Source: Phymorhynchus buccinoides
Lineage: Eukaryota > Mollusca > Gastropoda > Neogastropoda > Raphitomidae
Assembly: GCA_017654935.2 (NCBI GenBank)
Contig: CM065694.1
Location: 4,471,215 to 4,535,214, forward strand
Direction: 5' to 3'
DNA length: 64,000 nucleotides
Shown here: piece by piece, positions 39,128 through 57,222 of the stretch
Layout of the letters: each line of letters starts with the position of its first letter
Position numbering within the stretch: the stretch's first letter is position 1
Translations under genes and position numbers: made by a program
Notes under the pieces: model-generated
What the model was told of the DNA's origin: nothing
Databases searched by the model: none
Seen by the model: only the letters and a program-made list of their open reading frames with translations

Positions 39128-39543
39128 ATGGCTGTGGGTGTTGCCAGCAGGTGCGCCCCACGCGGTGCTGACCGTCAGTAGATTGATCTGGTGCTAAGGG
39201 GATGGCTGTGGGTGTTGCCCGCAGGTGCGCCCCACGCGGTGCTGACCGTCAGTAGATTGATCTGGTGCTAAGGGGATGGCTGTGGGTGTTGCCCGCAGGT
39301 GCGCCCCACGCGGTGCTGACCGTCAGTAGATTGATCTGGTACTAAGGGGATGGCTGTGGGTGTTGCCCGCAGGTGCGCCCCACGTGGTGCTGACCGTCAG
39401 TAGATTGATCTGGTACTAAGGGGATGGCTGTGGGTGTTGCCCGCAGGTGCGCCCCACGTGGTGCTGACCGTCAGTAGATTGATCTGGTGCTAAGGGGATG
39501 GCTGTGGGTGTTGCCCGCAGGTTTGCCCCACGCGGTGCTGACC
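39128..39543 (+). repeat. 74-bp tandem repeat (six copies) containing a 3' splice site
   Basis: Copies start at 39128, 39202, 39276, 39350, 39424 and 39498. Each contains ttgcccgcag followed by the first ~23 bases of the adjoining exon (g(t/c).gccccacgcggtgctgacc). The last copy runs on into the real exon at 39521, so six equivalent acceptor sites are presented in series. Confidence 0.92.
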
Positions 39544-39696
39544 CGGGCCAGGTGGGCCAGTGGGGGCGGAGTGGTGATGCTGGCCTACCCCACCCTACTC
39601 CACCTGGGCGTTGTCTCCCATTACCTCCCCTCCCTGCCCCCGGCCGTCGCTGCGTTCACCGCCCTTGGATTGACCCTCAGCCTGAGAAAGGGAAAG
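39521..39696 (+). CDS. Multi-pass membrane protein, exon A (first exon recovered)
   Basis: Opens after gcccgcag (the sixth copy of the 74-bp repeat). Two bases complete a codon from an unseen upstream exon. Encodes two hydrophobic stretches (VVMLAYPTLLHLGVVSHYL; AVAAFTALGLTLSL) and ends RKGK before gtgagt, phase 0. No signal peptide or start Met in this exon, so the gene is 5'-incomplete here. The protein family is not recognised. The 11-exon model is supported by matching phase at all ten junctions, giving about 665 residues to the stop at 56673. Confidence 0.75.
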
Positions 39697-40188
39697 GTGA
39701 GTTTTGACTTTTAACCACTTGTGATGGTGCATGGGAAAAACCTACATTACTCGCTCAGAATGTTTTTAGCAAAAACCAAAAATAGTCAACAACCCCCCAA
39801 AATATAATTTGTTCTATTTAGGGCATATTTATGTCTATTTTTATGTATTCTACCAGCTTCCACAACATGAAAGACAATTTTGAATTATTTCATTGTTTAT
39901 TTGATCATTCTCTAAATCAAGTCAATAGAAACAAAGAAGCAAAGTCTATGCCTAATTTCTGCAGATGAGATGATCTATTTCGAATGCCAAACTTCAAATA
40001 ATTCTAAAATAAAAACTAGACAAGATAACTCAATTCAGTTTTCTGTGTATTAACAAGGAATCTTTGCTCCACCATGAAACATTAAAATCTGAATTTATGC
40101 CAAAATTCCATTATGGTTGTTTTTCCCATGCACTGTCACATTTTTTTCCTGGACTTGTTTTGGTACAAACACATGGGTGCTCATGGAA

Positions 40189-40770
40189 ACATTTTTAAAT
40201 CCTGCTAGAGGGCGGCCCCGGCGGAGTGCAGGAGCAGCGCACACACACACACATTTACTGCTCTTTTTTCACCCCTCTAGACTAGTACAAGTGTTACATT
40301 ATATAGCAAATGCTTTATCCCTCTTGCATTCGCATTTGTTACAGACAAAACTTTTTCTAGTGTTCAGATTATTTCACACATTTTTGGGGAAAGTGTCTTT
40401 TGAAGCACACAGAGCACCATATAGTTACTATCACTTCATTGCAAGCGATAAGCTTCTTCATAGTGTGTGTATAACAAACCAGAACTTGGTGCGTGATGAA
40501 AATACCATCAGAGGGGGTCTCAGAGTGGGGGCAAGCTATGGGCGGTTTTGGGCGGCTTGAATACACAGAGGCAACTTCCGACCGGGCGGTTTGGGGCGGA
40601 ATAAATGCAAGAGGGTTATGTAGGCCCTTTTATTGTACAAGTTTGTGTGTGTGTAAAAAAAATCGTTTCTCAAATAATTTTTATTGAAATGCTCATTACC
40701 CGGCGACGCCGGCTCTAGGCAATTTAAAAATCCTGCAATTCAGGACATCCTGAAAGAAGGAGCACCCATG
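40189..40770. repeat. MITE-like interspersed element in intron
   Basis: Ends are inverted around catgggtgctc / gagcacccatg. Internal blocks (ccccggcggagtgcaggagc; acgccggctctaggcaattt) recur in reverse orientation at 52045-52285. No coding capacity. Confidence 0.55.
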
Positions 40771-41152
40771 GAAACGGTATAGTTGCGGTAAAAACTTGAT
40801 GCCAAAATCTTATGCAATATGTCGCCATCAGAGATGAGCTGAAAAGCACTTTGTTTTGATTTGATTGCTTTTTTTATATTTATGTAAGTAATGTTTATGT
40901 TAGTGTTTGTAGAATATCGTTTTCTTCTCGGGATATGTTCCACTCCAATTAAGTGTTACAAAAATACAAATAAGTATACTATAAAGGGCTTTGGTATGAC
41001 TCATATTTGAGTTAACCCACATATATTGAAAGTGGTTTTTTTTCTGTTTGCTTTTCTATTTTTTTTCTTTTTGTGAAAGGTTATTTGAAAGTTTAACTTT
41101 TTGTTTTTATTAAAACAGAACATAGACTTTTTGATACATAGACACAACACCC

Positions 41153-41461
41153 AAACTCTCTCTCTCTCTCTCTCTCTCTCTCTCTCTCTCTCTCTCTCTC
41201 TCTCTCTCTCTCTCTCTCTCTCTCTCTCTCTCTTTCTCTCTCTCCCCTCTCTCTCTCTCTTTCTCTCTCCCCTCTCTCTCTTGCCCCTCTTTCTCTCTCT
41301 TTCTCTCTGGCCTAAAATCTTTATTCTTGCTAAATACATTTTTGTCAGTGCTCTCTCTCTCTCTCTCTCTCTCTCTCTCTCTCTCTCTCTCTCTCTCTCT
41401 CTCTCTCTCTCTCTCTCTCTCTCTCTCTCTCTCTCTCTCTCTCTCTCTCTCTCTCTCTCTC
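41153..41461. repeat. Two long (CT)n microsatellites
   Basis: (CT)n at about 41153-41320 with T/C interruptions and an almost pure 112-base tract at 41350-41461. They lie less than 60 bases upstream of the acceptor of exon B, so they could act as an oversized polypyrimidine tract on the plus strand. Confidence 0.93.
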
Positions 41462-41518
41462 ACACGCACACACGTATTGGCCATTGCTTGCAGCATTATT
41501 AATGGCTGTCTGTGACAG

Positions 41519-55230: not shown

Positions 55231-55303
55231 TAGTAATTGTGATTTCGTTTTGGGTTGTTCCTTATGATGTGCGTTTTGTTTTTTCCCTCCGATTTTTAAC
55301 TTC

Positions 55304-55372
55304 TTTGTGAAGCGCTTAGAGCCCCGTAAGGAGAATAAGCGCTATAAAAATGGTCATCATTATTATTACTTG
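55304..55372 (-). repeat. AGCGCTT...(ATT)n repeat end
   Basis: aagcgcttagagccccgtaa ... gcgctataaaaatgg followed by ATTATTATTA: reverse-oriented relative of the family at 9615 and 54337, lying only 15 bases upstream of the exon J acceptor. Confidence 0.65.
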
Positions 55373-55386
55373 TGTGTGTTGCCCAG

Positions 55387-55530
55387 GGTCCGGGCAACTT
55401 GCCCCTGCTGACCAAGCAAACGGAGGGCAGCCTGCCCGTCCTGCCCATCCTGGCTAACGCTGTCGTTATGTCGGCTGTCCTTCTGGCCCGCACTCAGGGA
55501 CCACAGGATATCCTGCTCCATGACTTATGG
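55387..55530 (+). CDS. Multi-pass membrane protein, exon J
   Basis: Acceptor gttgcccag, phase 0 at both ends (48 codons). A loop GPGNLPLLTKQTEGSLP is followed by a helix (VLPILANAVVMSAVLLA) and RTQGPQDILLHDLW before gtaatt. Skipping it would keep the frame. Confidence 0.8.
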
Positions 55531-56250
55531 GTAATTTCGCTGGTTCTTCAGTTATGAGAAAAAAAGAATTTTGCTCTTGTGATAAACTAATGGATGTTTA
55601 CTTCCATCATTTGTGTTCGTCTCTGCCTCTCCACCCACTCGATATTTCTTGAACCGCTGTAAGAACTACTTTCAATTTTGTACAGTGGGTGACATTTTTG
55701 CTTTTGTTCAAATCACATTTTCTTTCAAGTTCAAGTATACTTTATTAACTCCAAAAGAGAAATTCAGGTTAGGTGCATGACAGAGATACAACACAACTGA
55801 AAGAACAGTAATCAAACGTGTGAAACAAAATTATATCAATCATTAATAATTATTAAAATTCATTACATGAATGTGCACATTTAAAACCAAGAGAGGGAGA
55901 GACTGACTGACAATGAGAGAGAGAGAATCAATAACAATTTTTTATATTTTATTCTAATTATAAATCTAATGGTTTCATGGGTGCAACTTTTTCCTTTTCT
56001 TTATATTTTACCAGAAAAGGAAGGTGGTTTTTTTAAAGCAACAGATTGACATAAGAAGCGTTTTGAAGTTTGACTAGTTACACTTGAGGCATTGTCCCCT
56101 GAACCCCCTAACAGGGCTGTGCCCTGCCCCCTGCCGGGGCCTGGATGGCCTCTGGACCCGTCTTTCATGTTGGGGTGTACCTACTGTGGCTGTAATATTG
56201 TCATTTATATCGATTCAAATGACTCACTCGCTCCTATCATTATTTTCCAG

Positions 56251-56673
56251 TGCTGCGCCTCCTCCATTCTGCTGACCTTGCTGCAAAGCGACCCCGTGTT
56301 CTTGCCGACCTTGACCCCTCACAACCGAGCCACGCCCATCGTAATGGCTGCCATCACGTCCCTCGTCTTCTCCACCCTCAGCCAGTCGCGGCTCTGGCAC
56401 CGTGCCGGCAGTTCGTGGATGGTTTTTGCGGGTGTGGTGGAGGTGGTGTCGGTGGTGGGTTCGTTGCCGGTGTACGTGGTGTTGTTTGTGGTGATGTGGA
56501 GCGGGGAGGTGTGTTGGGAGAAGGCGGTGGTGTTTACAGTGCCGCTCAATGCCTTCGTTTTCTTGCTGGGGAGTGGGTATATGGCCTGGGCGCTGTGCGT
56601 GGCCGGGCTGGTGTGTGGGATAGGTTTGATGGTGTACAAGCTTCCGATGCTGCCGTGTCAGACAGATAGTTGA
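56251..56673 (+). CDS. Multi-pass membrane protein, terminal exon K
   Basis: Acceptor ttattttccag, phase 0, 140 codons and TGA at 56671-56673. It starts CCASSILLTLLQSDPVFLPT, then a helix with APIVMAAITSLVFSTL-like text, RLWHRAGSSWMVFAGVVEVV, a run of hydrophobic helices (VYVVLFVVMW; AFVFLLGSGYMAWALCV; AGLVCGIGLMVY), and a short tail KLPMLPCQTDS. I considered TMEM168 because of the WMVFAGVVE-like helix, but no other motif supports it. The whole protein likely has about 15 membrane spans. Confidence 0.83.
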   Translation, partial: CCASSILLTLLQSDPVFLPTLTPHNRATPIVMAAITSLVFSTLSQSRLWHRAGSSWMVFAGVVEVVSVVGSLPVYVVLFVVMWSGEVCWEKAVVFTVPLNAFVFLLGSGYMAWALCVAGLVCGIGLMVYKLPMLPCQTDS

Positions 56674-57222
56674 TAGTGCGCTGTGTGTGTGGCTGGTGTG
56701 CGTGATAGGTTTGATGGTGTATAAGCTTCCCATGCTGCCGTGTCAGGCAGATAGTTGATAGTGCGCTGTGTGTGTGGCTGGGCTGGTGTGTGGGATAGGT
56801 TTGATGGTGTAAAGATAGTTGATAGTGCGCTGTGTGTGTGTGTGTGGCTGGTGTGCAGGATAGGTTTGATGGTGTGTGGGATAGGTTTGATGGTGTACAA
56901 GCTTCCCATGCTGCCGTGTCAGGCAGATAGTTGATAGTGCGCTGTGTGTGTGGCTGGGCTGGTGTGTGGAATAGGTTTGATGGTGTAAAGATAGTTGATA
57001 GTGCGCAGGTGTGGCTGGTGTGCAGGATAGGTTTGATGGTGTGGGATAGGTTTGATGGTGTGTAAGCTTCCCATGCTGCCGTGTCAGGCAGATAGTTGAT
57101 AGTGCGCTGTGTGTGTGTGCAGGATAGGTTTGATATGTGTGGGATAGGTTTGATGGTGTGTAAGCTTCCCATGCTGCCGTGTCAGGCAGATAGTTGATAG
57201 TGCGCTGTGTGTGTGTGCACCG
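56600..57222 (+). repeat. Tandem array of the gene's terminal coding sequence and stop codon
   Basis: The last ~85 coding bases (gcgctgtgcgtggccgggct ... gtcagacagatagttgatag) are followed by about seven diverged, partly deleted copies with ggataggtttgatggtgt, aagcttcccatgctgccgtg and caggcagatagttgatag. All lie in the 3' untranslated region. Separated by GT simple sequence. Confidence 0.88.

Follow-up and report, generated by a model that had tools for sequence, protein, structure and literature searches.

Minisatellite-like arrays across exon edges of a Phymorhynchus buccinoides gene and its paralog: probable 'mirages' in a mollusc

Why should short tandem arrays lie repeatedly on the exon edges of a single gene, and what would the copied splice signals mean for its transcripts? 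The question is raised by a stretch of 64,000 nucleotides from the 2.12-Gb genome of the snail Phymorhynchus buccinoides (C15:4471215-4535214; hereafter the window), in which eleven exons (A to K) of a plus-strand gene are accompanied by separate arrays with unrelated units that copy the acceptor of exon A, nearly the whole of exon E, the end and donor of exon I, and the stop codon of exon K. As an earlier note on these letters had noticed, such arrays are dense in this one gene; they exceed the expectation for randomly placed units, and a paralog on C11 is alike. To judge from the sequence, they are probably 'mirages' formed by recurrent local tandem duplication and tolerated since one intact junction remains.

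The exon A acceptor array (39128-39543) consists of five units of 74 bp which, together with the real edge, give six acceptors; the copies read GCCCGCAG, the first reads GCCAGCAG, and the last is the true edge of exon A (39521-39696, a phase-1 acceptor placed by alignment with relatives). The exon E array (46615-47203, or 46615-47212 including the end of E4) repeats a 146-bp unit four times, with exon copies E1 (46660-46765), E2 (46806-46911), E3 (46952-47057) and E4 (47098-47212). Whereas E4 (115 nt) has the ancestral end and donor, the latter 9 bp beyond the array, E1-E3 (106 nt) lack the last nine bases of E4 and end at a new donor created at the joint (CTG|GTAACA), so that the four copies previously called complete are in three cases nearly whole. 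At exon I (54696-54861; from the exon chain and alignment with relatives), the exon end plus its GTAAGA donor occurs six times in units of 58-70 bp (54832-55218), the first copy being the real edge. The stop-codon array (56607-57219) contains the end of exon K (coding part 56251-56673, stop codon TGA at 56671-56673) and the first bases of the 3' untranslated region (UTR) in seven copies of AGATAGTTGATAG, of which the first is real; the additional copies would be 3' UTR. The rows of Tandem Repeats Finder (TRF) for this array begin at 56694, 21 bp past the stop codon, and its start was extended by hand to the first copy. The copy numbers claimed earlier for exons A, I and K (six, six and about seven) are thus borne out.

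The splice signals are largely kept: AG in 6/6 copies at A and 4/4 at E, the new GT in 3/3 copies at E, and GT in 6/6 copies at I. Scored with weight matrices, the exon A acceptors reach 4.0 in the first copy and 5.7 in the remaining five, the exon E acceptors 6.6 in all four and the exon I donors 9.0 in all six, and the donors of E1-E3 score 4.9 versus 9.7 for E4. The repeats at A, E and I cross exon-intron boundaries, as mirages do by definition, and the exon K array sits on a stop codon, not on a splice edge. The fifth boundary counted in the earlier note has to be withdrawn: the array that it read as the end and donor of exon C in eight copies is intronic, 0.95 kb downstream of exon C (43263-43405), whose true donor is single. 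This array (44356-45077, eight copies of 84-96 bp, GT in 7/8) overlaps a decayed duplicate of the end of exon C (44317-44393; 77 bases, 86% identical) in which the exon C frame runs into TAG, and the two together span 44317-45077. A 33-bp unit repeated eleven times (51682-52053) begins 14 bp past the last base of exon H and does not include the edge.

Spliced together, the eleven exons (39521-39696 to 56251-56673) give 665 open codons followed by a stop, and the product aligns along its length, at 49-60% identity, with proteins of three other snail genera, which we take to be caenogastropods (Littorina saxatilis V1264_015800; Babylonia areolata LOC143298211 and LOC143282735; Nucella lapillus ACOMHN_040130); the Babylonia model P0002 ends before exon K, and scoring in these searches was limited to the 8000 candidates with most shared words. 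The eleven-exon chain described earlier therefore stands, although as the 3' part of a gene: residues of P0002 before 326 are unmatched within the window, and the N-terminal part of P0003, the other Babylonia model, is matched at C15:4138966-4150005, adjoining a palindromic segment. The protein had no match in Pfam and no relative among the solved structures in PDB; it is uncharacterised and, by eye, has the appearance of a protein that crosses the membrane several times.

The C11 paralog (33-55% identical to the window gene, by exon), of which exons D-K were read, repeats the pattern. Four of its six TRF arrays copy an edge, namely the acceptor of exon F, the donors of exons I and J, and the stop codon, so that both types of splice edge are hit in both genes (A acceptor and I donor in the window gene). 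By eye, the region of its exon H acceptor (L032:5655-6068) is also triplicated with divergence; TRF missed this triplication and it was left uncounted, which indicates that our counts of such edges are low.

Other genes of the same genome were surveyed through four Pfam families, SNF being searched first and p450, myosin and Sugar_tr being named before results were seen; the counts cover the best-scored candidates listed, and a tandem extra is a same-strand match to part of an exon within 600 bp. Such extras accompany 12/256 loci (SNF 9/85, myosin 2/70, p450 1/92, Sugar_tr 0/9), and the SNF count compares with 0.5-1.8 expected from background arrays over the 81 of 85 loci shorter than 600 bp, SNF being the one family for which this expectation was computed. 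The measure is confined to extras with a scoring match, 27 residues being the shortest in the tables, and because it finds just two among 37 loci of the window gene's own family, one of them a loose match and fewer than the arrays read there by letters, it must underestimate. In p450, 14/93 matches span at least 250 residues, and these offer few edges. By match position, seven of the twelve cases repeat the end of the exon on its downstream side and one repeats the start on the upstream side, the other four being ambiguous. An SLC6-family gene among the SNF cases was read in letters: the end of an exon and its GTGAGT donor recur there in units of 105 bp, with GC instead of GT in the two distal copies. 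This unrelated gene has the same anatomy, so such arrays extend beyond the window gene.

Similar traces are found in the protein models of other snails, compared window by window for internal repeats. In the Littorina model the beginning of exon A occurs two times at a distance of 38 residues, and in the Nucella model (P0004) the beginning of exon J occurs seven times, some copies reading through an apparent acceptor; among the Babylonia models, P0002 is without internal repeat and P0003 has one, in its glutamine-rich N-terminus. The Nucella model also contains a reverse-transcriptase domain (PF00078); a mobile element and copies from the array have probably been fused there into one protein. 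Annotators should take note, for this gene model seems to chain array copies into protein.

Could all this be coincidence? Minisatellites are indeed common in this genome, as the earlier note said: they make up 18.2 of 125.6 kb of a background sample free of N (14.5%, i.e., about 15%) compared with 18.2% of the gene, and a genome of this kind places arrays on some edges, whereupon a gene with several of them would be noticed. An array copies an edge only if its founding unit held that edge, and subsequent growth inflates its extent, so that placing whole array extents at random overstates chance; we think that the correct null is the placement of ancestral units on the collapsed gene, and the extent-based test was set aside as the main one. 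By unit placement, 4/7 arrays of the window fall on an edge versus 0.87 expected (P=0.005), the misses being a duplication within a short interspersed element (SINE)-like insert, the C array and the 33-bp array. The paralog, which was not selected for its arrays, yields 4/6 versus 0.96 expected (P=0.005). Both values include stop codons, and they speak against coincidence, as do the SNF excess and the repeated exon starts of the Littorina and Nucella models.

Several results weigh on the other side. With extents placed at random, 4/6 arrays contain a boundary versus 2.5 expected (P=0.19), four boundaries lie inside arrays versus 3.8 expected (P=0.55), and addition of the SINE-internal duplication gives 4/7 (P=0.28), although 5/6 arrays lie within 20 bp of a boundary versus 2.7 expected (P=0.047). 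When only splice edges are scored, the unit test weakens for each gene, to 3/7 versus 0.85 expected in the window (P=0.041) and 3/6 in the paralog (P=0.042), with 6/13 for the two together (P=0.0035); this slightly lowered our confidence in tandem duplication and raised that in coincidence. The window was picked for its arrays, which makes its own P value post hoc. Outside the window gene's family, the excess depends on SNF and is uneven among families, with hardly any extras in p450 and none in Sugar_tr; two of the nine SNF cases, both on C23, look like a single duplicated locus, and 11 of the 12 cases outside the window family rest on match positions. Finally, the microhomology invoked for the origin of the arrays comes from two joints, and splicing is presumed to be normal. 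The claim of a co-location beyond chance thus holds under the unit null and fails under the extent null, and pure coincidence appears to us a rather unlikely explanation overall. A bias in base composition is not favoured as the cause, the median background unit having 43% GC, equal to non-array sequence; arrays weighted by length have 48%, with exons at 60% and introns at 41%, so some bias may be present.

The arrays might also be artefacts of assembly, and this part of C15 shows signs of difficulty. A palindromic segment (C15:4158808-4217145) holds two further copies of exons A-G, which match the window at 99.2 and 98.9% identity across some 11.7 kb, and the similarity begins directly after a 500-base gap (18498-18997), which suggests that the three assembled copies may be duplicates or misplaced alleles. 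The copies differ from each other, with 51-68 pairwise mismatches in 11.7 kb, but carry equal unit numbers, six at A, eight at C and four at E; for comparison, a long array of 137 units of 54 bp falls short by 55 bp in one of the two other copies and by 4 bp in the second, and a CT run is 6 bp shorter and 3 bp longer, respectively. This comparison covers A, C and E, the arrays of exons I and K lying outside the copied segment. Since the C11 paralog and the SLC6-family gene hold arrays of the same kind, an assembly artefact is highly improbable.

Arrays of this type are known from other animals. In amphioxus, tandem repeats across exon-intron boundaries, termed mirages, occur in Adh3 and in the globins BflGb6 and BflGb9 with AG/GT in many units; BflGb6 has six and three units in two haplotypes, regular splicing appears from the data to be undisturbed, the origin is termed unclear, and a route of intron gain was proposed (PMC3087553). 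PGBD5 and troponin C were later added (PMC3902484). The snail arrays resemble these in being minisatellite-like, in affecting both intron ends, in unit length (10-160 bp in mirages) and in keeping AG/GT (PMC3087553, PMC3902484), and differ in that they occur in a mollusc, that several lie in one gene and its paralog, and that a stop codon and an almost whole exon are affected too; unlike the two haplotypes of BflGb6, the three assembled snail copies (alleles or duplicates) agree in unit number at A, C and E. In human segmental duplications, internal tandem repeats at exon-intron boundaries can alter splicing; these, too, are minisatellite units at exon edges, although they differ from one recent paralog to another and are backed by RNA (PMC2812944); the snail arrays were read in DNA. 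The donor minisatellite of IFI6 (6-16) supplies several donors, of which downstream ones are used, but it is one array in one gene (PMC4526556). In potato, a tandem duplication across an intron-exon boundary copied the splice signals and yielded a new intron; the snail arrays share with it only the edge-crossing duplication and the copied signals (PMC4974935). Literature searches, made on listings and not on all papers, brought up no mollusc example; within that limit, the snail arrays are of a known kind that is new for molluscs.

How might they have arisen? Under recurrent tandem duplication, a first local duplication would join two sites with a few bases in common; by eye, TGCTG is shared at the joint of the exon E array and ACTGT at that of exon J in the paralog. 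The two-copy state would then expand by ordinary minisatellite turnover, the outcome of which is seen in the several copies present. The geometry suggests that a duplication crossing an edge leaves one intact junction beside the exon body, so that the extra copies fall in intron or UTR and would be nearly neutral, while arrays within exons would alter the protein and hence be lost. Exon definition would then pick the copy nearest to the exon body, i.e., the last acceptor at A and the first donor at I, and splicing would usually be normal. Exon E would be an exception: each of its four copies has potential splice signals, and inclusion of one, no more and no less, is required. A rival account, which was also raised in the earlier note, regards exon edges as mutational hot spots at which co-transcriptional structures (R-loops, spliceosome-bound RNA) cause breaks or slippage. 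The differing units at differing edges of two paralogs and the exon-start repeats in models of two other genera would fit it; survivorship, however, yields a similar pattern without any hot spot, through the loss of duplications that fall within exons. We therefore consider hot spots a doubtful explanation, on a par with coincidence, and prefer tandem duplication followed by tolerance.

Whether the extra sites serve the gene was assessed from reading frames, with entry into exon A taken to be in phase 1 on the model of the relatives. Each of the five acceptors that precede the real one at exon A leads to a stop at codon 15, and only one of the five extra exon I donors stays open (54927, +66 nt), the other four truncating the protein. 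A spare copy is therefore no backup at A and mostly none at I, and the earlier proposal of a splice-site 'buffer' is not supported by the frames. The companion proposal of an isoform generator survives for exon E and the one open exon I donor. Exon E is the main candidate: of its 16 possible inclusion patterns full length (662 or 665 codons) is reached by the four with a single copy, whereas the remaining twelve truncate the protein, so that the frame is preserved by exactly one copy.

Tandem exon duplication with mutually exclusive exons is a well-known phenomenon, and exon E resembles it in having four copies of which one is in frame, although the snail copies are nearly identical. If it were a working mutually exclusive cassette, its proteins would differ by three to six residues. 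An acceptor and a GT donor are present in all four copies; the three base differences of E2 and E3 from E1 all change an amino acid, E4 having one further silent change; and the pattern is identical in all three assembled copies. On the other hand, such similar copies may be too young for regulation, the donors of E1-E3 are the weaker ones, and E1-E3 drop the residues DLL, the D and the first L being present without change in all relatives aligned. A functional cassette is, on balance, unlikely.

The remaining exons are ordinary members of the chain: D (45616-45932, also supported by alignment with relatives), F (48427-48583), G (49777-49921), H (51532-51668) and J (55387-55530). Exon B (41519-41595) has the donor GTATCCTT, which we take to be a U12-type (U12-like) consensus. 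Downstream of it lies the insert that we label SINE-like by eye (41591-41917), with CTGTCGTATCCTTCT on either flank and a second exon B donor at 41908; the doubling of this donor looks like a target-site duplication (15-base direct repeat) of the insert. The intron between exons C and D contains an element with inverted ends GTGACCCAGCACCATGAAAGGGACATTAA (43599-44274), and similar sequence was seen by eye at about 49970-50590 and in the palindromic region. Upstream of exon A, the array of 137 units of 54 bp (30708-38238) can be read on the minus strand as a repeat of 18 residues, YDMQRTPNVFGCVDGTLI, that stays open for long distances and presumably resembles part of a Harbinger-type transposase. 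One minisatellite unit of 53-57 bp occurs at two sites 4.6 kb apart (21424-21773 and 26010-26372), and an open frame on the minus strand (3612-4232) contains an in-frame 18-residue repeat three times (QEKAREEAEKDKQRAHDA) and is gag-like by eye.

If such arrays occur several to a gene, differ between paralogs and are present in other genera as well, they would offer many separate test cases for splice-site choice among near-identical copies and for the growth of new introns or alternative exons. More tentatively, exon edges in caenogastropods might be a standing source of tandem duplications that provides spare splice sites genome-wide and, occasionally, a ready-made set of alternative exons. 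If this were true, the genome of P. buccinoides would be a live system for observing the birth of introns and alternative exons.

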